Positions 20,401 to 41,400 of a stretch of DNA of 64,000 bases are shown here, one piece after another. The stretch is from the NCBI RefSeq assembly GCF_964204645.1, contig NC_134025.1, forward strand, positions 28,302,001 through 28,366,000, read 5' to 3'. Position 1 is the stretch's first letter. Every line of letters starts with the position of its first letter. The translations under genes were made by a program, and so were the position numbers. Origin of the DNA: Tubulanus polymorphus (Eukaryota > Nemertea > Palaeonemertea > Tubulaniformes > Tubulanidae). The notes beneath the pieces were generated by a model, which saw only the letters and a program-made list of their open reading frames with translations, was not told the DNA's origin and did no database searches.

Positions 20401-23400
20401 ACTAAACGTGTTCTAACTACATTCTAGGCATGCACGTAACTTGGTAAAGTTGTGTGAAGTAAATTGGACAGTAATATTAGTTCATAGTAACAAAAGGAAC
20501 GTGTTAAAATAATTTTTGTTAAAATGCACAAGTATAGAGACTTTTTAACAAACATACAGGAATTAGAGGAGATTTTTACTAAAGGGACAGCTTTGTAATA
20601 AAATAAAAATTGGTAAATTCAGGCATTTGTTATGATCTATATATACATTGTAAAATATCATACTTTTGCCTCAAATTCTTCATCTTTCTTATGTTGCTGT
20701 AAACAGGAACAATATTATGATGTATGTAAGTGTACCTGTGCTAATGAATAGTTTGTAGCAAAGAGATTAACAGAAAAAATTGAATGTGTTCTCTAAATGG
20801 ATGTTCTAGTAAGCGCAGCTTCAGGAAATCACTACTCAAAGAGTGTTCAAGTGTGTGAATTACATGTGTAGAAATTGACTTGAAGAATATGATTTCTAAT
20901 TCCAACTAAAAGCTTTCATCCCTTGTCTGAGAAAGATCATCAAAAATCCATATAGAGCATTTACGGAAATAAAATATTCACAGCAATTTATAAACTCAAA
21001 GAACATCTCTCTCAATCAATGACTCACCTTAGCTTCTTTTTCTTGTTGTTTCCTTTCATTTTCTTCGATTTCTCGTTCAAGTTCATGTTGTTTTTCAAGC
21101 GCTGCTTTCAGAGGCTGACAATACTTCGTGTATTCCACGATGGCTATAGTATATTGAACGAGAGTAGCGGCATCTTCACTAGCGAACCTAGCAGCAGCTA
21201 ATGTTATACCTCTCGTATTGTCAGGTGAAGGTGTTCGTCGCGTTGGCGGAAATGGTCGGTTGTCTAAAAAGCAGGTTTAAGTTTTATATATGAATATAAG
21301 GTAAATAAAACTAAAAAGTTTTCGGAGTTTATGATGATATTGCTACCTGGTGCATTTTCTAAAAGAGTTCCTTCTCCAGTGATGCCTAACTGACCATCTC
21401 GACCTTTAGCCAGGAACGATTCAACCGATTTAGAAACATCGGTCTTTAAACCATCTTCCCATTGAACGTTGTGTAACATATCGACAAACTTTGTTGTATC
21501 ATTCATCGCTTGCGTAATGGCTTTCCACTGAGCTCGATCAACACGTTCATTCAGGCTCTTTTCTTTAGAAGAGGCTGAAAAATTGAAATATCCACTCGTG
21601 TATTCATCTATCTTATATCAATGTTACTCTACTGGGGTACTGCTAGGTTGTCAGATTCGTGTGCAGTGTGGAAATTCAATAGCCTTTGGTGTGGGGAGTG
21701 GATAAGCATTAAAATAAGCGAACACACATTATTTTCTTACAATATACATGTTCAAAACAAATTCAAGAATGATTCTCATTTAATAGTTTTGTTATAATTT
21801 GCATGCAAGGAAGGATGTTAGTAAGTTACTTACGCATTTTAACTGATTTAAGTTTTGCACTCGCTTCACTACCTGACAGTCGACTGCTGCTTTCATCACG
21901 AGGATAGTTTATAGAAGCCGATGAATCTTTAGTGTCGGGTCTGTGCGAGTTTGGAACGCGCTTCCCAATCAGTGTCATAACCATTTCCATGACTTGTCCG
22001 ACTAGTAACGGCGGGCTTCCGAATGCCTTTAAACGTTCGATGCAACCGCGATCAACTTTACCGCGCCATAGATTCACCTGAATTATCATAGAATATTTGC
22101 TGTATTCATCGATATCTATTCAAAACTATTAAGTGTTGAGTGTAAGTCGTACCTGTTTTCGTGCGCCCTCGAGCTCGTGACGACAATGTTCAACTTGTTT
22201 AATCGAAGCCATCAGTTCCTCTTTAGCTTTCACGTGTCTGTTACGCATGTTTTCCTCTCGTAAACGATCAAACTCTTTGTCATATTCATCATAATCATCT
22301 ATGAGGAATATTATCGAAAAATTCAGGAATATGAAAATTACAGAGATAGGAATGTAATTTGAACCCACATTATGATTTCTTCTGATAAAGTCAATATGTT
22401 ATGAACAATTCACCTTGTTTTAGAAGATCATCTTCTTCTTCGTCGTCAGAAGACATTTCATTAAGCTGCAGGAAAGCACTAAGAGCATTACTTTCGCCGA
22501 CTTCTGCCTTCAATTTTTCGAGTATCGTCACTTTCGTCGTTAGTTCTCTCAGAATTTGTGCCGTGTTAGATTTAGCTTCGTCATATTTTCCTATGATGTG
22601 TTTGATGGCTTGACGCATCGTCTTCGCATCAGTTCGACTCTGAGCCAGAGCAGCTAAGACTTTTCTACGAGATTCAAGAGAAATTTCTAGCAAGTGTCTT
22701 TTTAGAAAGCTGGATGGAGTTTTGAAATTGTAACTTACTTCAACTTTTCTACAGTTTCAGTTCGTTCAATCGATTTCTTGTTGTAAATATGATAGAATGT
22801 ATTCATGAACCGACGATAGGTCAATGGACCGACAAAAACTTCATTCTTTCCGAGGCCACTAGCCAGTCTATGCTTTTGTCTGAAAAATGATCAAATAATC
22901 GACTAATTAAAACAAATTGCTGAATCTAAATCTCTCAAAAATAACATACCAATCTCAACTTACTTAATATTTTCCAGTACCATTGTCTTAGAGTATGGTA
23001 GGTTTGGTACTTTGATCGATGTTGATTTGATCAGATCTTTACGTTTATCTTGAACGCGTATATTTGTCATCATGATCTCTTCACTTGCGTCACCGGCCCA
23101 CGGTATTTGTTTACTCTCGGTCAGGATGAAATTGTGAATATTTGCCATACAGTTGATCACACTTTCGCTGTTAAGAATATGAATATCACTGTATAATGAT
23201 GGTTTCTTTTTTCTAACAAATATTTTCTCTGAATATGTTATTATACCGCAGCTTACCCAATTTCACTATCAACGAAAGCAAACTGTTTTTGAGCGGTGAA
23301 AAAAGAGGCTTCTTTGAGTAAGGCTTCCTGTGGCCAATCGCAAACCCAATCAACTTGACATCCACTCAGCAATCCTGGATATTCACTACAAATATCAAAT

Positions 23401-26400
23401 CACGAAGTCTTATGATGTGGCCAGATATTTTTCAATATAAACATGTAAGAGAAGTTTTTTTGAAAACAACTATTACCTGGCAGCGCTATACACAAGATGA
23501 TGTCGAGGAGGAAGGCAAATAATTATATGCAAATTACTTTTCACTCTTGAAACGAAGAACTTCATCGGATCTGCGAGAAGAGCAGGATTCTCACGCTTCA
23601 GAGCTGGATAAAGTGCCTGTAGTAAACCATCCATTTCATCATTAGAAAATAGATGTAGATATTCTCCAGCGACTAGAATACTGTTTATAGCATCCAAATA
23701 CGAGTCATCTTGTAAATCACGTGCCTGAAATTAGAAACGAATTGGCAACATTAATTCAATCCTGTTCATATTCCACTACAGATAGAAAGAACAACTACAA
23801 CTGTATATTGTATGTAATGGGCTTACTGTGAAGAGAAGTGATAAGACTTTTCCCTCTGAACCGCTCATTCTAACTGCAGATCGTAAACCATCGAAGAACG
23901 TATTCGGTTTACTACTATCGATAGGTAGAATGGGAATATCTGCGACATGAAGAGCCAGTTTACACAGCGTCGCCAGACGAAATCCAATAGCACTGATCAG
24001 CAATGCATTACCGCTGAAAATACCACAAAATAGCCGCTGAATCAAGCGATTAATGTAAGAAAATCCACTTCATAAAGATTTTCTAGTTACTTGATCCTTG
24101 ACTTACCCGTGATGCAGACTTAGAATGCGATGCAACCTAACAAGATGAACTATCACTAATTCAGAGAGTGAAATCTCCAGTTGTACATTTCCAAGTTCTT
24201 CGTTATAACGTGTTTTCTGAGCTTGTAAACACGTGAACAAATCTGCATATTTTTCAATAGGCTGTAAGGCAACTTTGACTTGTTTTTGCCCAGTAACTGA
24301 AGTCATCGGTCTCTGATACACACGCATATCAATTGGGAATGTAACAAAGTTTTCGTGAAGGGATCCTTCTTCCAGATTTGGCCAGAACTGAAAAACAAGA
24401 TTTCATTAGATTCACCACAGCACAAGGAAGGACATGTATCAGGCAGATATTGTTCTTATTTGTAAGTAAATTACCTCTTCAACGATTTCAGTTACTTTAT
24501 TTTTGAACCAGCTCACATCTGAAGTTCTACAAATTCTATCCCCGATGATTCGTTCCATTTCGTGTTTCCACAAAGAGAGAACCATTATTTCATCCGCTCG
24601 ACTTTCATCTGGCATTCTCTTTAAACACTGTTAAACGATAGAAATACCAGGTGAAAAAAAGGTTGTTTCTATTGAGTTGAACCAACCGATTCAAACAGTT
24701 TTAATTACCTGGAAGCATTTCGTAACCTCCCTCAATGTAAACAGATAATGCTGTCTGCCAGGCATATTTGTCATTCGTAATACAGACTGTACATCAGTGA
24801 GCAGTTTACAAGATGCACCAGAAATAGCGTTCTGTAAATCGATGTCTAAACCTGGTTGTTCGTTCTGTAACATATTGGCTTCCAATATTCCGCTAACTAT
24901 ATTCTTCAAAGGTTCATCTTTTGGCATTCGAGTGCGAAGTACAACAAAATGACGCTGTAAGAGTGAAAACATGGCTGAGTTTGAAACATCTTTCAATAGC
25001 CTTTATACAGCCCCCGGCTTGGAGATGTCCTTTTCTCAAATCACCAGACGATGATCTCTAGGGTGAGATCGAAACGTCGTGTCTTTTAAATATTTTAGAT
25101 TTAATAAATAAATTCTGGTTTTTAAATTCTTTTAATCTGTAAATTGTGGGATTTTATCTGTATTTATGTGTGTATATTAATTATTTGTAATCAGAGAGAA
25201 TAAAGCATTCATTCATTCATTCATTCATTATTCAACCCCCTAAGCCTCCAACTTACCATTAACCTAGAACTGAGAAGCCGGTTTACTACACTGGGTGTTT
25301 CACTGAATGACATAGCTGCGAGAATAACTAAATCTTCCACAGAACGCCATTCAAACGGTTTCTGCTGCGTGCACAAGACTTTATCATCGAGTAGTTGTCT
25401 TAACAACTGAAAAAAAAAAACAATTTCACATTCTCTTCATACTGCCTTACTTCATTTTAAAGGATGAATTGAGTTGAACAAAGAAATCAAACTAACCTCA
25501 TTACATTTCTGCACACCGTACTGATCAGGAACTGGTAGATTCAAGTCATCGATGAACAATTGTAACCTCTTGTTGTCTTTAGCGCCATAAACAAATCCTA
25601 GAATAAAATTCAAGTGATTAGATGACCTTTTCCTCACAATCCTGTTAAATGCTTAAATGTCTATTTCAAATATACCTTGTCTGTGATAGATATTTGATTC
25701 TATGAATTGATGGAGTTGTTTAGCGGTTGATGCTCCGCTGTAAACTAATTTTTTGCTCACTCGGGTTTGAGAATCTACAAAAAATTACGATTAAATTACT
25801 AGAAAATTCCCAAAAATAGAGCAATACCCGGTATATGCAGTATTAATACGGTGCTTACCTTGACCATTGATGAAGTCATTGACTATGACAGTTTTACCAG
25901 ATCCAGGAGGTCCCACTAGTAGAACGTTTTGACCAGAAGCTACAGCGAAATCCATCAACACTCGAGTTCGGATCTGAAATCATAGGAATGATTCACAGTA
26001 TTCTTGCTCAGTTAGAAGAAGTCTGTAGTAAAATGAATGTCTCACATACCGTATCAACTGTATCAATAACTATCTCTCCTAATTCATCCTGATTATCAGA
26101 ATAAACTGCTTCAGGTACCCTGAAATCGAAAGAAAATCATGCTCTTCAAAGACTGTAATTTATAGTGAGGTATGACTAAAAACTTTTCTGAGCTTTCTAT
26201 GTACCTCGACTGCCAGGGGTCCCATTCTCCAGATTCGTCGACGTAGTAATCAAACACACAGATATCTCGATCGTCATCGGGTAACCTGCAAAATCATAGA
26301 CAATCATCGTTCATACTTTCAAGCAAACTGTGTTATGAATCCGGGATTTTCCAGCCAAATTTTGAAGTTACTCACGCTGATGACAATGTCTTCAATAAAT

Positions 26401-29400
26401 CGCTGAATGTTTTACGTTCAGCGTCTTCTAATAAACCACCAAACGACCAGATCAAACAGAACAGGTACAACCTCTCAATGTGCAACTCTCCACCAATTTG
26501 TACATTATCAGCTAGCATGGCTGACAACAGATTGAGACAACTCTTGAACATGCCAACTTCTGTCAAACGGATATTCGGCCTGGAAAAAAGATGAAAGTTA
26601 GATATGTTCGCTCAAAGATGAAGGATTCTAAGACTTAAACACAAAGACACGATGAACTTACTTAGCTTCATGCAAAACATAATGACTAATTGCATCCACA
26701 GTGTTATCAAAGGCTCTCTGTAACACCTGTACAAAATAAGTAGATACTTCAGTTTTTTTTAAATAAATGGTAACTTCTTAGAAACATGAAATGATGTTTC
26801 CATTTCTTGGTAAATTCTGTTCAGAATGCCAAAGTTTTTCTCTACATCGATTTCAACAAGCCTGTCTATTGTAATAGAAATAACTGCATTGAATGACAAT
26901 ATTTGTAGGAGAGATTGAGAAGCAAAGCAGAAACCGACACAAATGCATAAGATGGAATGTATGCACATCACCAAGCGAAATAGAATAGACAATTACAAAA
27001 CCCACATAGATACATAGGATATATGCAGAATAGATAACACACAACACCAAATAGCAATTACTTTATAGTTCAAACTGACATGAATGGAATTCTAATTACG
27101 ATATTCAAAATACTGCAGGATAGAATCACAATAGCAAGTGATGCACATAAACCAACATGCAACCAGTGCAAGCGAAATGATTATATAACTCATCATTCAG
27201 TACCAACTGAGAAATACCCCGGTACTACATAGGACTTACTTCCTGCAAGAATAAAGGAAGCATGGAATTATTTTTGACAAAGTCAATAATCGTGGATTAT
27301 ACTAGTCAACCTAAAGTTCACTCTCTATTATTTCCTGATCACAGAATGAGAAAATCTCAAAAGATAAGACAATAGATTTACAATGATTTGTAAATGAAGT
27401 TGAATAATGGGACTTACGTTCACTTCTTGTTGAGATCTTGTCTGCATCCATGCTTGAGCAATAGGTCGCCATCCAACTACAGTTTTACCAACAAACACGA
27501 TGCCCTGAATAAAATTTAGATTTTTATATCATAGGTCTTTGATTCAGGTTTGACAATACATCTAAACATCAAAATACTTACAGCTCGTGAGACAGTAGCT
27601 GGTGAAGCTTTCGTTAGATCATCCGTCTCAAACAACAGTTTGATATTATTGGACAAGAACAATCGATCACCATTTCGAAGATGTAGTGTCTGAAATGATA
27701 TACTCGTTTTAAAAGTATTTCATAAAAGCAGAGAATGAAATTTGAGTGGATTTGTGGCAAATACCTTTCCTGAATCTAATACAGTACTGAAGTTATCAGC
27801 CCATCCAGCGTTTAATGGTCCATCTAATGAAAGCCAAGTCGTGCATTGGTTCTGAAAACAAAGAATTTGATTCTTAATCAATAAAGAAATCACAAAATTT
27901 TATGGTAGAAGTTCAAAGTTCCACTTACTCGACTCGCTTTCTTCCAAGCAGATGTGAAAATACCATCAATCCAATCCATATTGTGCAAATATCCGAACAT
28001 CAATGAATCGTCATCAACGACTAATGGATTTATCTTCTGCAAGCGATGGTTCATTTCAGCGGAACCTTTCATACTGGATGCCGAATGGCGCGAGAGGCCT
28101 CGTGGATTATCCGCGCACAGAGCTGTAACTAAACTCTGAATCATTCCGGATTTACCAGATCCCGGCGGTCCGGCAACAATTATACCTAGAAATCAAACGA
28201 CATTAATTTGTTAATTGTCAATGCACAAACTGAAGTACTTTTGATCACAGTTTTCAAATCGTTACCTCCGTGAACCAACGAAACGTTGTAAAGTTGAATA
28301 CATTTATCGACCCAATCTTTAGTCGGAATCAGTCCATTTTCTTTCGCAGTAGAATGTAATGTTAATTCTATTTCCTGTATACGCGTATGCGCTGAAATGG
28401 CTCTATGTGAACCAGGTGGATCTGGTAAACCTTGAAATACATCTTTCACGATCTGAGTGAAGACCGAACAGATCTGAAAAATGATGAAATTTTAATGAAA
28501 AAATTCAAACGTGTTCAAATATTTTCATATCATAAACCGATGAATACATACATCACCACTTAATCGTGGACCGATGATTTCTAGTAAGGCTTGTCCAACA
28601 ATAGAATGTTCCATCTTTGCAGCAGGAGTGAGAGGATTTGGAGTACCAGTTTTACGACTGTACCGATCAGCTGGAGTTCTTCCCTGCGAAACTATTAACA
28701 TTTATACACAGTTAGATATTAGAATGAATGTACGTTTATCTGTTTGAGACAAAACTAAAATGAAGTGAACATTAGAAACTATGTTGAATCTATTGTAATA
28801 AATAAATCTACCTGTAAATGTCTAGCTATGTATGGTTTTTGAAGATATAAATATGGTAAATGAGAAAGTTAAAAGACTACGATTAGAACTGTCTCGGAGA
28901 TGTTGTCAATTTTCTGAGCCCAAAAAATTATACATGCTAAACAAGCAATACTCGACTAACCACTATCTATACCTGGAGCCAGTTTTTATAAGTACTGGTT
29001 TGGCTAGAGAGAAGAAAATTGCTGCAGGAAAGCACTAATTCAAATTATAAAATGTACCTTTCTTTTTACGCTTTGAGCGTGGAGAACCATGACCTAAGTC
29101 AACATTGTAAAATACAAGAATAACTGAACATAAGTGCGTGGAGAAAACTTACGAAACTCGCCGGAGTATGGTTGAAAATAAAAACTGGACAGAAAAGAAG
29201 ACATTAAAGGAATGAATGCTGTATTAAGGAGAGACATACCATTAGATGAACTGTGCTGAGCGTAAACTGATTGATTACTGCTCGAACGAGTCGCGTCTGC
29301 TTTATCGAATGATTTTTCTTCTCTGATGAGTTTACGTCGATGACTGGCGAATCGTAACACATTCACAAGTGATGAAACACTCAGGTTGTGATGATCTGCT

Positions 29401-32400
29401 ACTGGCCTGTCAAACATACGATTAACTATCTTAATTCATTCATAATCAATAACATGAGATGAATAGATCTCAACCAATGTGCATTTGAATATGAGAATCA
29501 AAAAGTTATTTGCTTACAGTTGATCTTTAGAAAGTTCCATGACAATCTTGAGGCGGTTGCTGAGAATATTTGGTGCACGGAATCCTAATCCTGAACACTT
29601 CAATTTCAGAATCATGTTATAATCCGGTTTGAGTAAGTTGACAGTGCGGAATAGTGACTTGATTTCCATTGGGAGTTTGAATTTTGCAGATGTGCTTTGA
29701 TTGATAGTGAGGAACAGGGTAGTAGAAGGATTGATCAATATCTGAAATGTGCACATAATGTGTTTCATTCGTTCAATGAAATTCTAAAAAATTCTCGATT
29801 TGATCTAATCGTATACTAGAGTGTTAAGTTAATATACCTCTTGTCCATCGCGGAGTGTACATGTTTCTTTTGCGGCTCTTAAACTTCCATATATGGATGA
29901 AACATAATCGAGCAGAACAGATAAACACTCTCGATTCATTGAGTGAAGTTCATCAAAACATCCCCAACATCCATCCTAAAGATAGGATATACAATGTATA
30001 TAATCCATCAACGAGTTAAAAAGTAGTTACACTGCCATAAAGTATAGTGACCAATAGGAATACTAACCATAGCAAGTCCTGTAAGAATCTTTCCCAGCGC
30101 ACCAGGATCGGAATGTTCCGAACATTGGAATATTGATAAGTGATGGCCCAACAACTGAGCGAAACCCTGTATTTAACAAAACACTGTGAATAGATGAATA
30201 AGCGTAAAATTATTAAACCTCCAACTGAAGACATTGATTATATACTTACACTGACGGTTTCAGTTTTACCAGATCCAGTACCTCCGGCCAGTGTGACCCC
30301 CGTATGATTCTGCATATATTGAGCCATTGATATGAAACAGCGTTCGGTAGTCGTAGTTAATGAAACAACAGGTTCAGCGCCGTAAAACTCGCAACCATAA
30401 TCGTATTTTGTATCCAACATATACAAACATGGTTTCAATTCACCGCTTTCATCTAAAATACACGAATACCGGGTAATTGAAAAAGAAATTCGAGAAAAAA
30501 TGTTAAAACTTATTGCTTCGTTATATAATCAACAAACCTGTATCTTGTAGATAGCATCGCATATTTCTTCTCCAATCAAAATCAGTAGGTTCTCTGATTT
30601 TTCTGTTGGCCATACTGTCCAGAACATCGCGTAGATAGATAGAGTACTGTTAATAGAAATAACAGAACATTTAACTTGTAATTTCTACACAGACAGATAT
30701 CAAACCTATTGTGAAATATACTTACAGTAATCAGATTCTCTAATCTCAAGCGATGAACCGCTGTAAATGGTTCTTCAGCAGTTTTCGCGTAACCTCTGCT
30801 CAGCACAGAGTTCAGTTTTCCCATATTCGTCGAGAACTTTTTGCCCAAGTTGTGCAGAGCTTTACGATCATATTTGATCTCTTGGACACCGACTTCGCAT
30901 TCTTTAGTCCAATAGAACAACATTCCAAACCGACAAATCTGGGTCGGATACTAAAAAGAAGATAGAATTGGTAAATGAAGGTAAAAAATGAAGTTGCAGT
31001 TCAACCAAATTTCTGCGATCTATACCTTTAATACAAGTTCTTCCATAGAAACTCCTTTGTTTACATCTTGCATCACTTCATTGAACAAAACTGACAGAGA
31101 CTTATGAATAATATCCTTCAAATGAGTCAACCAAGTTTCAACTCCATCTGCTAATGATACCTACAAATAACAACAAGATAGAGATTCATTTATAACTATG
31201 ATGAAACTATACGCATGAATGAATGAATAGACGGCAATGATTGATTACCTTTTCACATAACTCAAGAATTTCACCTTCACAGCTTATGACAGCGCTAGCC
31301 TCCCAAGTTGTTCTTTCTTGTACAATATCTTCTGATGGCAGCAAAGAAATGTGATGTTGAATTGCGGCAGGAATTTGCTGAAAATTCACAAGAACATTTT
31401 ATCATACATTTCACACACAAAGTTTTTAGCGGCTTATAATGCAGGCCCTATTTAACTGTGCCCAGGATCAGCTCCAAGAAAAATCCGAAAACGTCTTTAT
31501 AGCCGGTACCGGTACTATAAATTGAAAAGAGGTTTACTGTATGTAAATACGATTTGAACTACAGGGATATTACAGCAGGATAATAATGCTTTCACACTAA
31601 GCAAGTTACAATAATTAGCATCGATAAACCATAATGTTGTTTTTAGATCATGTATTCAGTGATTATCGACTCTAACCTAGTGAATTAAGCATGCGATCAG
31701 TTGGGAATGAAGCAAATTTCAATCAGTCTCAAAAATACCATGCATATGTCATAAATGTTGTTGGTGTTTGTTGTGCGTAAATTGAGCTATTTTAGATGTA
31801 ACTGTAATTGAACGAAGCGTGATAAATGCATCTCTTATAATATTGATATACCTGCGGAGGTAGAGCTGGAGGGTTGGGTTGGGATAAGGCAGTCTTTATC
31901 ATCAGAAAGAAGAACAAATCTTTATATTAACAGCACATAAATCACACACATGCAGAATTTACCATTAAACATTGTTACAAAACGTGCAGCATGCAAAGGG
32001 AAGTGAAATTATAAAACAAGATGAGATATGACACAGCTTTCAATCAACTGGATATAACCACTCATTCCAACAGAACAAGAAAAAGTAATAATATAGACAG
32101 ATACATGATATACAAGCTCAAATCAATGTTTCTTTCAAATAACAAGAAAAACAACAGCAAGAAAACAAAATAATTATAGGACAGAAACAACATCAACCAA
32201 ACCACCAATAGGGCTCACCTTTCTCGGTTTTTTCTGCAAAATTCCCTTCAATTTGTCTTTACCCTAATTCATGATTCAATTTCAAACCATAAAATTACGT
32301 ATCGCACATAGGTTTTTTATCACAGTAGCTAAGGCTAAGATTTAGAATGCCGGGTGTGGAGCTTACCTGTACGTGGACTAGTCGTTTGTCTAGTTTAGTT

Positions 32401-35400
32401 TGAGCAGTCGGAGCAATAATTGGTTGAGAAGCGAAATCAGTAACGACACTCGTTGGTCGAGTTGTGTCTTCATGGACCGATGGATTTTGATCTAGAGTGA
32501 TTGAACTACCCATAACTGCTTCTAACTTCAAATCTCGAACAGCAGTAAATATAGACCTGTGAATATAAATCATTTCGACATGCTTCACTTTACTTGATTT
32601 TGTCTTATAGAATGAACTCCTAAAAAAAACTTACTTTAGGTAAGGTTTGATGGAGTCCAGTTCATTCGGTCGACTCAGGATTGCCAGTAGTATAGGATCA
32701 GAAACGAAGAAAAACCTAGGAAAAGCCCTTCGTTTACTGTCGAGATAACCGATCAAAGATTTGAAACATATCTCTAGTTCTTCATGGAAATGTTTGAGCA
32801 CAACACCCTTAGGGACCTCTCCACCGTAACAACACTGAAATCATGAGAAATAAGTTAAACTTTGGAGAAGAAGATCAGGATCAAAATCAGTGCTTTGGAT
32901 GAATATGACGATTACCTGCAGGACATTTCTAGTGTCATAAGCTCTTTTCATCATTTTTGTCCAACCTTTATCAATGCGGCTGAAACGTTTTGCTTCTTGT
33001 GGCAGCTCCTATGAAATAATTCATACGCATTTACGAATGTACTTAATAAATTGTGTTTGAATTATGATCATTGCCAGAATGAGTGTATGGGATGCATGCA
33101 ATATATTTATCCTTATTAAATGATTTGAAATTATTTTCATGCAAATTAGTCACAAATTGTATCAGTCATGCTATTATTTCTCATTCGAAGGGAAAATATT
33201 GATAGTCATATTAAGATGAATATTTCAGTTAAGATCTGTGGTCAATAATGGTTTGGCGATTAAATTTTTAACAGTTCTACTGTAAACCAGTGACTCGAAT
33301 ATTCAGTTATATACTTTGCATTTAGAATATACATAAGTAAATGTACATGCAGTTTAATTTCCACGAAGAGCAATTAGAGATAACTGATAATGAAGCAGTA
33401 ATGATAAGAATATTTCAGCAATTGCATAATAGATAGAGATGAGATCTTATATGTTTGATAATAAGATAACAGTGTTTCAACGAAAATTGAATATAAGTGA
33501 ATTTATGTATTTCCATGTGCCATTGTTGTGTTTCAATGCTGTACATATGTACAGCCCAAAGCTGTGATTTTGGCAACACCAATGTGTGTAAGGCTCAAAA
33601 TATACCATCACAATAGACTTCCAAATAAATCCAACAATTGTTTGTATAAACGGATTCAAATAGAAATGTTTCTATTATTGATGGTTTCTGATGAAGTATA
33701 TTTCGGGTTATTTCACAAAGTGATGCCTGTAAAGTGGCTGTCATAATTTTTTACCATCTCTTCAGATCCATCAAGATATGAAATTACCACAGGAGCAAAG
33801 AACGACTGAAGAAATTAATGAAGCAAGGAATAATGAATGTTATGCATTTGATGATAATCATTGATAAATGTTCATACTTTTAACTGAAATAGAATAAAAC
33901 CTGTATATTGTATGCCTAGATTCCACACATAAATTCTCGGTAATGTAGATATGAAATATGCATATACATGAGACTAAAACTCATCTTTTTTGAAATGCAA
34001 AGCCGTCAAGTATAAATATAGTAAAACGCCCCACTAAGCAAAATTCAGATTGTACAATGGAAGAGACCTGCCAAAAAATTGCTGCAATATACTCAGTGGA
34101 ACCAGTAGGGGTTCGAACAAATGAGTTGTCTTGATCCTAGAAACACATTTCAAAAATCAATCAATTCTCAATTTAGATAAAATCAAAATTGATGCAAACC
34201 TAAATGGATAAAGATCACATAAAATACAGGAAAACGTGAGGAGGATTTCACCTGAATAGTCTACACTTCTCCAAAACGAAATAAATGTATGAAACTAATT
34301 AGAAGAGATACAAGTAAATGTACCTTTGATGCAGTTGGGTTGCTGAAAACGGCCTCTAAATACTGCCATAAATCTTGTACTTCGAGCCACTGTTCTAGAA
34401 CCTCCCCGACCTCTTTCAGTTTCTCAGCCCATGATGCGGCTTCCTCTCTCAACGGACCGATGTGACGACTCGTTAACATGTTCGCTAACAACGCTTGAGC
34501 ATCTTCTAACTGTTCCAGCAGACGCTCCGTGGACAGTTTCTCCAAATAGATCGGACCTCGGCGTTTGTACGGCTCGAATGTCAAAACCTGTTTAAACACA
34601 TTCACACAGAATAAGGATTCAATGTATACGACAGTAGTTTAGGGCGAGATTGCAGAGTGTGAATTAACCGATAATGTTTACCTGTTCTGTCCATTCCTCT
34701 TCAGTCACACGCAGTTTTACTTCTAATTCCAACTCCTTACCAGCGCATCGGCATATCTCTTCAATTTCAGCTCTGTGCCTGGAAAACATCGCAACACGAT
34801 GCACCAGGTTTATCACGGTTATACACAGGAAGTAAGACAAGACAAGATATTTCATAACTCATACTTGATCAGCCCAATGTCCAATAGATGACAATTCTTG
34901 AACATGTTTGCTTCAAGTGGGAATGAACTACCGGTTACTTGCATTACTTGCAGCCAGTGACGATTACGAATTTCCTAGAATTAAACAATAACACAACAAA
35001 CTCATTCAGATGCATTAATTTATATGAAGTTTCAGAAAAGATGAATGATGTACACCATTTAACTTAGAAATGTAACAAATTAACTTGAATGAAATCTCAA
35101 ACTGACCAACTGATGAGTAATCAAGAAAGGCAAAAAGCAGAATAAGACTAACTCGGTACTTACTTCTATATCATAGCGTTGTTCTCTCTAAAGTTAGTAC
35201 AACAAAGAACAGACAACAAAAACAGTTAGCATCGAAATTAGAAAACGTTAATCGGAGATATAGAGACTCACATCTAAACCAGTGCTGTATATGAGCTGAA
35301 GCAACAACACTACTACAGTCATAGTGTCTAAATCATCTAATATTAACAATGCGTGTACGTTTCATTTAGTATCTAGCAGTGTTGTTAGATAGTCAGTATT

Positions 35401-38400
35401 TTTGTTATCAAAATAAACCGATCTACTATCTATTCTTCTTACCTTGGATGACAGTTTATGCAAAAGCGGAATAACGTCCAGATAGTGCTGTATAGCGTTC
35501 TTCATGTCCTGATAAGCGTCCCAATCTTTCAGTTTACTCGGCAGAGCCAAACATTCATCCCAATAACCTTCCACCTAAAAAAAACATCCGACTTCATACA
35601 TTTTCTCAATTCTAGTCTAGGCCTATGTGAAGGTGTAATAATAATATCTATTCTGTACATAGAATATCTCAACAAACTTTACAGATTATAGATATAAAAC
35701 ATTGGACAAATAAATAAGATACCGGTAACTGTAAAAAAAGTTATGTTTAGAGTGTCAGAGATTGAAGTGAATGAAAAGATTTGACATGTCACAATTTAGA
35801 TGAAAGGAGCTACAAATGTATACACATAACAGGCATATAGTTAGCTAGGTTCTTTCAGAAATATTTCAGAAAATAGATTTTCATTTGAACGGAAAAAACC
35901 AGTCTTATGTACCTCATTGTTAAAGTCACCTACGTATCAATAATGATAAAAAGATTAATCTTATTCCTAACACATAATTCTATCAGCATACCTGTTTCTT
36001 AATAACCTAAAAACCCCAGATAAAACGAAACCACAATGAACGAAATGAATACAAACAATGATTATTTGTGTAAAGATGAATATTTGATATTGTATATGAT
36101 TTACCTCTTCGGTCGCATTTCGTAAATCGACATCAGACCACAATGTGTCCCTGAAGTTGTTATCAAACCTGATGAACTTTTGGAACAGGCCGTACAACTG
36201 ACCAAGAAGATCCAACTCCTGCAAAATGGAAATAAATTACACAATAAAATCATATGAAATCAATCACTTTGGTGGTTTAGCTCTGTTTAGCTCTGTGAAA
36301 CCGACCTCTCCTGTTTTATCCAGTTCTGGGAATGGTTTACACGGAATACCGAACAATTTCGATACAGAGTCTAGTGTGCGTCTTTTTGTGTCATATGCTG
36401 AGAATTTCTGCTGGAAATTGTGAAGTCTGGCAACCGCTTCAGCTGGTGGAATTCCAGGAACAACCGGTCCCTGAGCATCAAACGCATTGCGGAACTGAAT
36501 TACTTCAACAACGAATGTCTGAAAACAAAGTTCATCATTAGAAATCAGTAGTTTGAATAAAGACTACATGTTTAATCATCATGGTTAAAACTTGGTAGAA
36601 TTTACCTTAACTTGTTTGTCTAATTCCTGTTCAAAAGCCACACGTCTCTCCTTCAGAAGAACGTGTCTCAGATTATCTGCCAGTTCTAACAATTCCTGCC
36701 ATTTATCTCGCAATGAATCGACGTTTTCCACTTCATGACGAGGCAAACGCAATTCAAACTCTCTGTTAAATGTATCAAAATATCAATTACTCGCAAATAC
36801 AAATTCACATTTATAGATAGACACGAAAATATGATATAAATATTGTTGATAAAGAATGTGAAATACGTATTAGGAAAGTGTACACATGCTCTATAAACAG
36901 ATTGGTGTCAAAGATACTGGTGGTTAATGGAATTCAAAAACCTCACCTGAGATGGCTGTACATTGTTTCTATCGGAAGATAAATTGCATCGATCTTATTC
37001 TCCATGTCTTGTATTTCCTCCAGTAAGTGTAATGTACTATTTAACTGATCGAGGTTTAGTACACTAAGCTCTAAGCGACTGCAAACATTCATACGATACA
37101 ATAACGCCGCATCCAGCTTTTTCTATAAACCATGCAAATAAAAAGTGCCATGCAAATTCATACATGAAGTGATATAGTGATATATAAGATAAAATTAAAG
37201 AAAATTATTCTAACCTTAGCTTCTTCATGTAAAACTGCTGCGTATTTGCATTTCCAAGCAACAGCAAATCCGTGAAGGGCATCTTTGATCAAATCAGTTT
37301 TCAAACACACAGGTCCGGCGGGTAGGTTTGATGGAATATCATCGATGTTGCTTTCAACCCTCTGCAATCGTTCGACTTCTCGACGCAGAAAGTACGGTCC
37401 CGGTTCGTGTTGTATGAACTCGGTGAAATTGCCCTGAATGTCGTCTTTCCATAAGAAATCATACATTTGAAAATGCATGATGTGCTTGTTCAATATCAGT
37501 TCTAAATCTGTATAAAGACGAGACAGATAAATTAGCTACGGACGAGACAAATCAAAACAACAAAATTAGGTTTTCATTTATACCTGCGATAACAGAACTC
37601 AATTGATGAAACATATCCTGAATAACCTTATCATCATTAACATGTTGAGAAAAGGTTTCTCCAATGTCATTACCGTTATTCCATTTAACACCTGAAACAT
37701 TTCAACACATCTTTCTAAATCATGCCTCCTATAACTTTCTACAACCTCATAGAATCATATTTCTTAATAGCCAAATATTTCCTGATAAAAGGTTTACGAA
37801 CCTTTCACGACATCTCTGATTGCAGAAGCAATGTTATCAATAGTAGACTGAATGGCGTCCATCGCAGGATTTAAAGTGATGTTTGGTATTGCGTAGTTTA
37901 CTGTCACTTCAAACCTAAAATAAACCCATCGCAGTCATATTAGAACATGATCAACTACTAAAATGTGTTCATATTCAGAGAGTTATTCACTTGTTCCCTA
38001 GTTACCTCAGATATGTGATTTCTGCAGTTCTTTCTGTTGTCCATGTCATGTTTGACAGCATTGACATGACGGACACCGGGCGTTTATCCGATTTCGCTGA
38101 CATCCCTCGACTGAGCGGTCTCGGAGTAGGTGCTCCACTCAACGATACAGCAGAATTCGACATCAAACTCACAGAACGGACAAGATCGCTGTCGCAACCA
38201 CAAGATTCAGCCAACGTGACAAGAGATCGGCATGTGGCAGTTAGAATCGCTTCATAGATATCATCACAGTAGTAATCTGAAAGTAAATCATGAATCAAAA
38301 TTCATCCAAAATGCTTATAGCTACTTGAGAAGATTTTCTGGGAAATAAAATTACCTAACAACTCAGAGACTATGTAATCCTCAGGGTTACTAACTGATGA

Positions 38401-41400
38401 CATGCCATAACCACTTCTGGAAGCAGTGAGTAATTTCATATCTCGGCTCTTTGACTCGGATTTAGTCACACTAGACGTCTACGGACAAAAAAAAATCTGA
38501 TATAATACAAATATATATCGGCTTGAATCTAGATTATCTCGATCACAACAAACTACAGGAAATCATACAAAAACATAGCAACCATCACCAAGATTTTAAG
38601 CCCATTAAGGCAACTCGACAACTAATTTCACTTATAAGTATAAGTGCTACCAATAACCAATCAGTTAAACAGTTAATCAGTGTTCAGTTAAAGTCAAGAA
38701 ACTATAGCGTTATATTTGTCAACTGCGGTGCCAGAGGATATTGAAATAAGAATTACGTTGTCGCGTAAATCATTCATGCTCATTTGGAATCTATTTGAAT
38801 GAAGTCCATCACTTTCTGTTCGCATAGCTTGCAATATAGTAGCTACGGCTTTAAAAGTTAATTTCTATAAGCAAAATAATTCGATTAAAAGATGATCAGT
38901 AATAGCATGAATTGATTCAATACATGTTTGATGCTAGAAAGCAAAGCAAATGGTCCCATCTTAAATCAGAAGGTCCTATAAAAACAATTCAATAAACTGA
39001 CCTTTCTCTGAGATAACATATTGGCAGCTTCTCTCATTCCATTCTCAATAATCAGTATACTATCGTACAGATCCTGTGCTTTAAGTTTGATCGAATGCAA
39101 CATATCGACAGTGAATTCTTCAGTTGGCTGAAAACAAACAAATCATTACGTACAAATGATACTTCATTAGGTTTAGCAGTTTTTCAAAAAACAAAATGAT
39201 GAAATTTACCCATATTTTGGAGAATGCTAAGTCAATGTCGAAGAATATCATTTCAGAAATCTTAGTGATTGTGTTGACTATTTTGGTTGATATGATTTCA
39301 TTGACTCGTTCAACTTGATATTTCAATTTTGCAGTCGCGGTGTGAACTTGATGTAGAAATGCATCTGAAAGCAGAATAGTAATTAGATCAATTCAGCCTT
39401 GAATAACAATTCGAGTTCCAAAGTTTTAAGAAATCTTACCAATATTCATGCTATTCCAAGCTAATGTAGAAAGTCCTGGTTGAAGCTGTTGTTTAACAGA
39501 TTCGATGCTGTTCACAAATAAACCTTTAAAAGGTGCGGGGATTGCTTCGCGAACATCTCGGAACTCTTTCAAACAGTGCTCGATGTTGTCCTTGTATTTC
39601 TTGAATCGTAATTCTTGCTGTAAAACGACCATGGCCGATTCGGGAATCTGAATCCCTAAACGCATCAACCATTTCGCTTCTTGTATCAATTCCACAACTC
39701 TGAAAGATTAGAACCATGAATTGATATGAAGTTTATCAAAATTGACTGGATAAATCTCAAAAATTTTTTAAATATGAATGAAGAATAGAATATTTTACCC
39801 TTCATCAGTATTAGCAACAATTTCCTTAGTCTGCGGATGATGAATAAGAAGTGTAGCTTTCAATCCGATCTTCGCTTGTTCGATATGAGCTCGAAGTTGT
39901 CCAAACCACAAACTCTCAAACGTCACTAAAGCGGTCGCTAGTTTATTATAGATTCTCACGATACGACCGTAATCTTGAAGACACGTGACAGCTTTTGTTT
40001 CTTTGAAAATACGCATCGGATCCTCGATTTGATGAAGCAACTGGCGAGACCAGAAAATTGCACCGGCAACCGGGGGTGCATTCCTGGGCATCGGTGGGTT
40101 TTCCTAAATATCAGAATATTTAATACATACCGGTATATGTATAATTGATGAATCCAATTTAATGATATTCTAGCGAATGACAGCAGTATTTACCTTATGC
40201 TTCTCATAAGCTTTCTGTACTTCGATCAAATCATCTTCGTACATATTGAAAATATCGACGTATTTCTCAGCGATGACGTGTTTTACTCCGTGACGATGAA
40301 GTATTGGAGAAAATCTAAAATAGACGCATTCGATTAGTGCTTGATGAAATTATAGAAACATTAATGCTCGACGGGGAAGATTGCTTACTTCGTAAGAAGC
40401 TGTAAACTTTCTTGTGTTTTCATTTTGCGAGCGAGCACAGCGTGAATATACGCTTCGATAAAACTTTCCAATTCTTTAACGATGTTCTGAAAGCTTGCGT
40501 AAGCCTCGTTGAAAATACCTTTCTCCTGTGATGAGAAATAGATGTAGATAAATCGAGATATAGAAATCTAATAAGATTTTATGACCTATAACTATAGAAA
40601 TAGGAAGATCATATCGATGAATTCCGGAATTTAAAGGTACAATAACATTGAGTGGTTACTGATCATAATTTGGACAGATTAGAATAAAATTTCTCAAACT
40701 TCAAACATTCTTAAACTTTGTGTATAAATTCTGAGCTCCGCAGTATATGGCCGTAGAAAGGGGATGAAAATATTTTTCATGATTTTAACGTTTTTTTCAA
40801 AATTTTTTAAGTACATATTCATTTTTCACATCATTCTACCCCCTGAAATTTGACGTACCTTGCTTTCTACATCAAGCATTACTTTCGTATTAACAGCTTC
40901 TAACATCGATTGTTTCATATCATTGATATGATCGCGTACAATCGATATCACACTCGGGCCATCATCAGTATCCTCCATGTGATAATATCGTTCAAGAATA
41001 TCGACCTCGTCTTGAGTCAACCCTTGAGAACCGTACAGCATTTCATAGATATAATTATCATGCGGAGATTTCTCGGCCTCATGAGCTTCATCGGCGAACT
41101 CCGGAGGTAACTCAATACTGTTATGAGCTTCTTCCTTTTCTTGAGGTTGCGGAACATCTTTCTCTTGGCTAACGACGATTTTAACCTCTCCAGCTGTGTT
41201 CTCTTGTTGTTCGTTGCCCAGTTCTTCATCTTCGGTTATTGTGATCAGATTTCCGTGTTCGGATACAGAAGGTATCACGGGATGTGGTTTTCCATCTTCA
41301 TTTGGTTTAGGCGGGGGTAAATCTGTGGGGAAAATACCAAATCAACTCAAGTGAAACTGGTAGCCTATTATCATTAGAGCTAAGAGTTGATATTGAGGAG

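Follow-up and report, generated by a model that had tools for sequence, protein, structure and literature searches.

Variety among axonemal dynein heavy chains is generally attributed mainly to the large number of genes that encode them. In a 64,000-nt stretch of the Tubulanus polymorphus genome (NC_134025.1, 28,302,001 to 28,366,000; hereafter, the window), seven small open segments were noticed in introns of a dynein heavy-chain gene, and it was proposed that they constitute an alternatively spliced microexon programme that tunes the tail of the protein. If at least the two strongest of these segments were genuine exons with optional inclusion, a single gene for a ciliary motor would yield several isoforms that differ by 5-8 residues at the link between tail and motor. 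If they were constitutive or false, they would be a useful warning on calling small exons by eye in AT-rich introns. The question is how many of the seven are likely to be exons, and of what kind.

Using a purpose-built exon model, we found that the gene runs on the minus strand from approximately 44100 to 14500, and comprises 96 exons called with confidence; its introns have a median length of 87 nt. Its tail and linker, translated without the small exons, matched the Chlamydomonas gamma chain with 478 bits, the DNAH5/8-like chain of 9fqr with 453 bits and human DNAH5 with 429 bits. Together with two further outer-arm-type chains, these covered a range of 421-478 bits; ciliate outer-arm chains scored 334 bits and all other heavy chains 229 bits or less. 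The AAA2-AAA4 region of the motor matched DNAH5 (374 bits), the DNAH5/8-like chain (367 bits) and gamma (343 bits), with all others at 287 bits or less. Because of this similarity of both tail and motor, the predicted protein can be placed firmly in the gamma/DNAH5-8 class of outer-arm heavy chains.

Three canonical DNAH5/8 genes (L024, L025 and L026) are present elsewhere in the same genome. Identity among these three is approximately 70%, compared with 34-36% between the window gene and any of them. Its AAA4 domain has lost the Walker A motif (23827-24013, minus strand), reading SAIGFRLAT where DNAH5 has GVGGSGKQS. The AAA1 domain (29838-30452) retains a Walker A sequence (GGTGSGKT) and the DE residues, as GGTGSGKTET and FDELHSM, and comparison with L024 showed that it contains neither GPAGTGKTET nor FDEFNRI. 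Canonical nucleotide-binding motifs in both AAA1 and AAA4 were thus not found in this gene. These motif changes mark it as a divergent member of its class. As judged from its sequence, the window gene is a fast-evolving fourth gamma/DNAH5-8-class paralog and not a typical outer-arm DNAH5, and expectations drawn from DNAH5 therefore weigh less. As a separate observation, contig C6 carries around 10 Antp-like homeodomain exons in a 320-kb stretch (5318228-5634747), each of them on the plus strand; this is a compact Hox complex and identifies the source as a bilaterian. A search for COX1 gave no match.

The linker of the window gene contains approximately 73 extra constitutive, low-complexity residues (31249-32556, minus strand; DNAH5 1755-1764), which neither DNAH5 nor the paralogs have. 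Low-complexity stretches that are long and either acidic or rich in serine also occur in constitutive exons at 40859-41322, 38006-38276 and 21834-22077 (minus strand). Across the intron at 28684-29239 (minus strand), the exon model failed to make an in-phase join, so at least one exon must be missing from the model there; a 36-nt candidate at 29058-29093 scores 13.1.

Each small candidate was scored on its acceptor, donor and codon content, with a background model blind to the introns under test. The candidates, and the constitutive exons around them as defined by the exon model and alignment, are as follows, in the order of transcription.

36105-36218, minus strand: constitutive flanking exon, ending LRNATEE
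35992-36006, minus strand: 15-nt candidate exon VIKKQ, between LRNATEE and VEGYWDE (DNAH5 1445/1446); score 15.5
35443-35574, minus strand: constitutive flanking exon VEGYWDE...HKLSSK
35272-35295, minus strand: 24-nt candidate exon LIYSTGLD; score 10.4; average splice strength, coding score approximately 0
35164-35187, minus strand: 24-nt candidate exon REQRYDIE, between LSSK and EIRNRHW (DNAH5 1489/1490); score 14.3
34865-34974, minus strand: constitutive flanking exon EIRNRHW...
34324-34587, minus strand: constitutive flanking exon VLTFEPYK...SNPTASK
34068-34136, minus strand: 69-nt candidate exon DQDNSFVRTPTGSTEYIAAIFWQ; score 7.3; weak donor
33755-33805, minus strand: 51-nt candidate exon SFFAPVVISYLDGSEEM; score 7.9; weak sites
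32916-33008, minus strand: constitutive flanking exon ELPQEAKRF...
32367-32556, minus strand: constitutive exon SIFTAVRDLKLE..., bearing most of the 73-residue linker insertion
32219-32263, minus strand: 45-nt candidate exon GKDKLKGILQKKPRK; score 10.7; inner 15-nt form KKPRK
31852-31893, minus strand: 42-nt candidate exon TALSQPNPPALPPQ; score 7.5; acceptor -2.4
31249-31377, minus strand: constitutive exon QIPAAIQHH...SAVISCEGE...

The positions and lengths given for the seven in the original prediction were borne out. All are open, are multiples of three, lie in phase 0 and have AG before and GT after them on the minus strand. The four introns that hold them (530, 468, 1315 and 989 nt) are among the longest of the gene and are themselves phase 0, as are 52 of its 95 introns, so the phase of the candidates is not an independent coincidence.

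The flanking exons had been said to align without a gap at three intervals, and this was the case. At LRNATEE/VEGYWDE, HKLSSK/EIRNRHW and SNPTASK/ELPQEAKRF (human DNAH5 1445/1446, 1489/1490 and 1646/1647), no gap was seen in alignments to five solved chains of the DNAH5/gamma class, comprising two kinetoplastid-type chains as well as Chlamydomonas gamma, human DNAH5 and the DNAH5/8-like chain of 9fqr. Therefore, skipping and inclusion would both give a plausible protein. The same cannot be argued for the candidates of 45 and 42 nt, which sit within the linker insertion region (DNAH5 1755-1764), because that region already carries its extra constitutive residues. The description of the junctions as canonical did not stand. 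They are not conserved DNAH5 exon junctions: L024-L026 lack an intron at LSSK|EIRN, and near the remaining two junctions their introns are shifted several residues further on. Small exons in the paralogs were considered and rejected, the introns of L024-L026 being at other positions.

Intermediate chains bind the N-terminal half of the dynein heavy chain. The candidate sites map to the DHC_N2/linker half, and not to the part of the tail to which the original prediction had assigned them as the site of intermediate-chain binding. The VIKKQ site lies in a stretch of nearly constant length among the five best solved chains, which counts against this exon; given the pattern of the sequence and what is generally known of dynein structure, the site is probably within a helix, where an insertion would shift the register. 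On the same grounds, the REQRYDIE site appears to be a turn before the conserved RHW helix, at which eight extra residues may be tolerable.

All seven candidates had been considered to possess usable splice sites. The flanking AG and GT are present in every case, and VIKKQ and REQRYDIE are at the level of constitutive sites, but the sites of the 69- and 51-nt candidates are weak. When ranked among the constitutive splice sites of the window gene, the VIKKQ exon has an acceptor at the 91st and a donor at the 69th percentile, and the REQRYDIE exon an acceptor at the 48th and a donor at the 93rd. The corresponding values are 21st and 6th for the 69-nt and 10th and 9th for the 51-nt candidate, and no constitutive acceptor scores as low as those of the 45- and 42-nt candidates (0th percentile). 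An inner form of the 45-nt candidate, 32219-32233 (15 nt, KKPRK), scores higher than the 45-nt form. On the same scale, most of the gene's known short constitutive exons fall between 10 and 28. VIKKQ and REQRYDIE consist chiefly of charged or polar residues.

We compared the number of candidates in the real host introns with several expectations, using backgrounds that were trained on introns other than those under test, on introns of the paralogs or on random genome sequence. At three score thresholds, which were chosen after the finding was already known, the host introns contain 7, 4 and 2 candidates; the second of these counts comprises the upper four and the third the top two, VIKKQ and REQRYDIE. 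Dinucleotide shuffles gave 1.5, 0.28 and 0.02. GC-matched natural genomic DNA, which is the stricter control because it may hold exons itself, gave 2.9, 1.1 and 0.07 (P = 0.038, 0.048 and 0.0007). Random genomic DNA without composition matching yielded 6.0, 2.4 and 0.7 candidates per 3302 nt, and on this control all but the top two would read as chance; it was set aside because its G+C content is 38%, compared to approximately 31% in the host introns, and because it contains real exons.

The direction of the excess was the same under eight background models. With splice matrices derived from the paralogs only, the excess persisted and the margin of the top two was weaker (P = 0.02). By length class, there were 7 in-frame candidates as compared to 1 and 3 in the two out-of-frame classes, and no candidate in the paralog introns reached the score of the top two. 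The antisense strand of the same introns gave 4, 2 and 0 candidates under an order-2 model, so the middle of the ranking is insecure. Pooled codon content was 14.4 for the seven, between that of chance candidates (-5.9, sd 6.2) and that of true exon pieces (22.9, sd 6.2). The earlier estimate that chance could give one or two was thus about right, the expectation being roughly 1.5 to 3. The seven represent a modest excess over this, carried mostly by two; each of the other five, taken by itself, could have arisen by chance. These values suggest that the seven are a mixture of two likely real exons, one or two possible ones and three that are probably chance. VIKKQ is the most probable candidate exon and REQRYDIE the second most probable; LIYSTGLD and the 45-nt candidate are uncertain; the 69-, 51- and 42-nt candidates are probably chance occurrences.

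The sequence pattern, the splice scores, the excess over chance, the divergence of the gene and its other insertions are best explained, in our estimate with a probability of around 55%, if a fast-evolving, insertion-prone fourth paralog has one to three genuine small in-frame exons in its few long introns. The genuine exons would most likely be VIKKQ (15 nt) and REQRYDIE (24 nt), perhaps with KKPRK (15 nt), alongside several chance look-alikes. The most likely mechanism would be exonisation, in which a frame-neutral open piece of intron gained usable splice sites on both sides, and splicing would then add 5-8 polar residues at tail-to-linker junctions with the frame intact, either routinely or optionally. 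The heavy chain looks as if it were tolerant of insertions at many places. Within this explanation, a special form is that the strong candidates are constitutive small exons that always add 5 and 8 residues, like the adjoining linker insertion. We regard this form as tentative. Since the splice sites of VIKKQ and REQRYDIE match constitutive ones in strength, these exons are no less likely to be inserted constitutively than to be used alternatively; the gene is also rich in lineage-specific insertions, and inclusion of the 15-nt exon would leave an upstream intron of 98 nt, close to the median. Against it, the alignments to the five best solved chains show no gap at the junctions.

Alternatively, all seven may be chance, given that AT-rich introns of 468-1315 nt hold several in-frame AG...GT stretches and that the search covered the gene's largest introns. 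GC-matched natural DNA does yield approximately three candidates that equal or exceed the weakest of the seven, the host introns are long for this gene, for several candidates the acceptor or the donor ranks in the lowest tenth of constitutive sites, and the coding scores of the 69-, 51- and 24-nt (LIYSTGLD) candidates are near 0. What this reading does not account for is the top two, for which 0.02-0.07 were expected and 2 were seen, the skew toward in-frame lengths and the lack of any equally high-scoring candidate in the paralog introns; it is possible, though less likely than a few genuine exons. A coordinated programme of alternative microexons that tunes the outer-arm heavy-chain tail by tissue or stage would fit the gapless flanks, the frame-neutral sizes and the modest excess over chance. 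However, five of the seven are individually at chance level, no regulatory motif is common to them, the sites are not in the half of the chain that binds intermediate chains, and the constitutive-strength splice sites of the two best candidates lend alternative use no support. In addition, a 33-nt in-frame candidate in the stalk region, QHKKDEEFEAK (20664-20696, minus strand, in a 774-nt intron), scores 14.1, on par with the best tail candidates. The claim of tail specificity therefore fails, since the phenomenon, if real, is gene-wide. We consider a coordinated programme very unlikely; a dynein paralog that is prone to insertions and has one to three real small exons is a better fit. Similarly improbable is a wider version, in which several genuine, alternatively included microexons in the tail-to-linker region and the stalk would let one gene encode a family of motor isoforms.

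A UGC motif upstream of the acceptor is a hallmark of the vertebrate SRRM4 programme. It was found in the last 25 nt upstream of only 2 of the 7 candidates and is not common to the set, and no motif unites the seven. A search of the genome for SRRM_C gave no match, which carries no weight because the same search found nothing in any control genome. Origin from a repeat or transposon was rejected, the introns being single-copy except for one 65-nt dispersed repeat that overlaps none of the seven. This repeat occupies approximately 35656-35720, in the intron that follows the 15-nt candidate, and five other copies of 76-91% identity were found.

Microexons of 3-27 nt are known from the SRRM4/nSR100-dependent neuronal programme. 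The candidates resemble these in being very short and frame-neutral, with good splice sites and few polar residues added. They differ in that they share no upstream UGC and lie in a ciliary, not a neuronal, gene, and the 69-, 51-, 45- and 42-nt candidates are larger than the usual size of such microexons. With canonical DNAH5/DNAH8 (8j07, 9fqr; L024-L026), the window gene shares its heavy-chain class, but it differs from them in intron positions, in its linker insertion and in the loss of the AAA4 Walker A motif. Full-text searches on microexons in dynein, on cassette exons of DNAH5 and on the splicing of axonemal dyneins turned up no described case, as judged by title and abstract. The nearest documented case that we found is a mutually exclusive exon in the cytoplasmic dynein heavy chain of Schistosoma mansoni, SmDHC1 (PMC3228551). 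There, too, a dynein heavy-chain gene has alternative internal exon content that was inferred from genomic sequence. However, the two SmDHC1 exons are homologous, of equal length and mutually exclusive, and they belong to a cytoplasmic chain, whereas the window candidates are short and mutually unrelated and would be extra.
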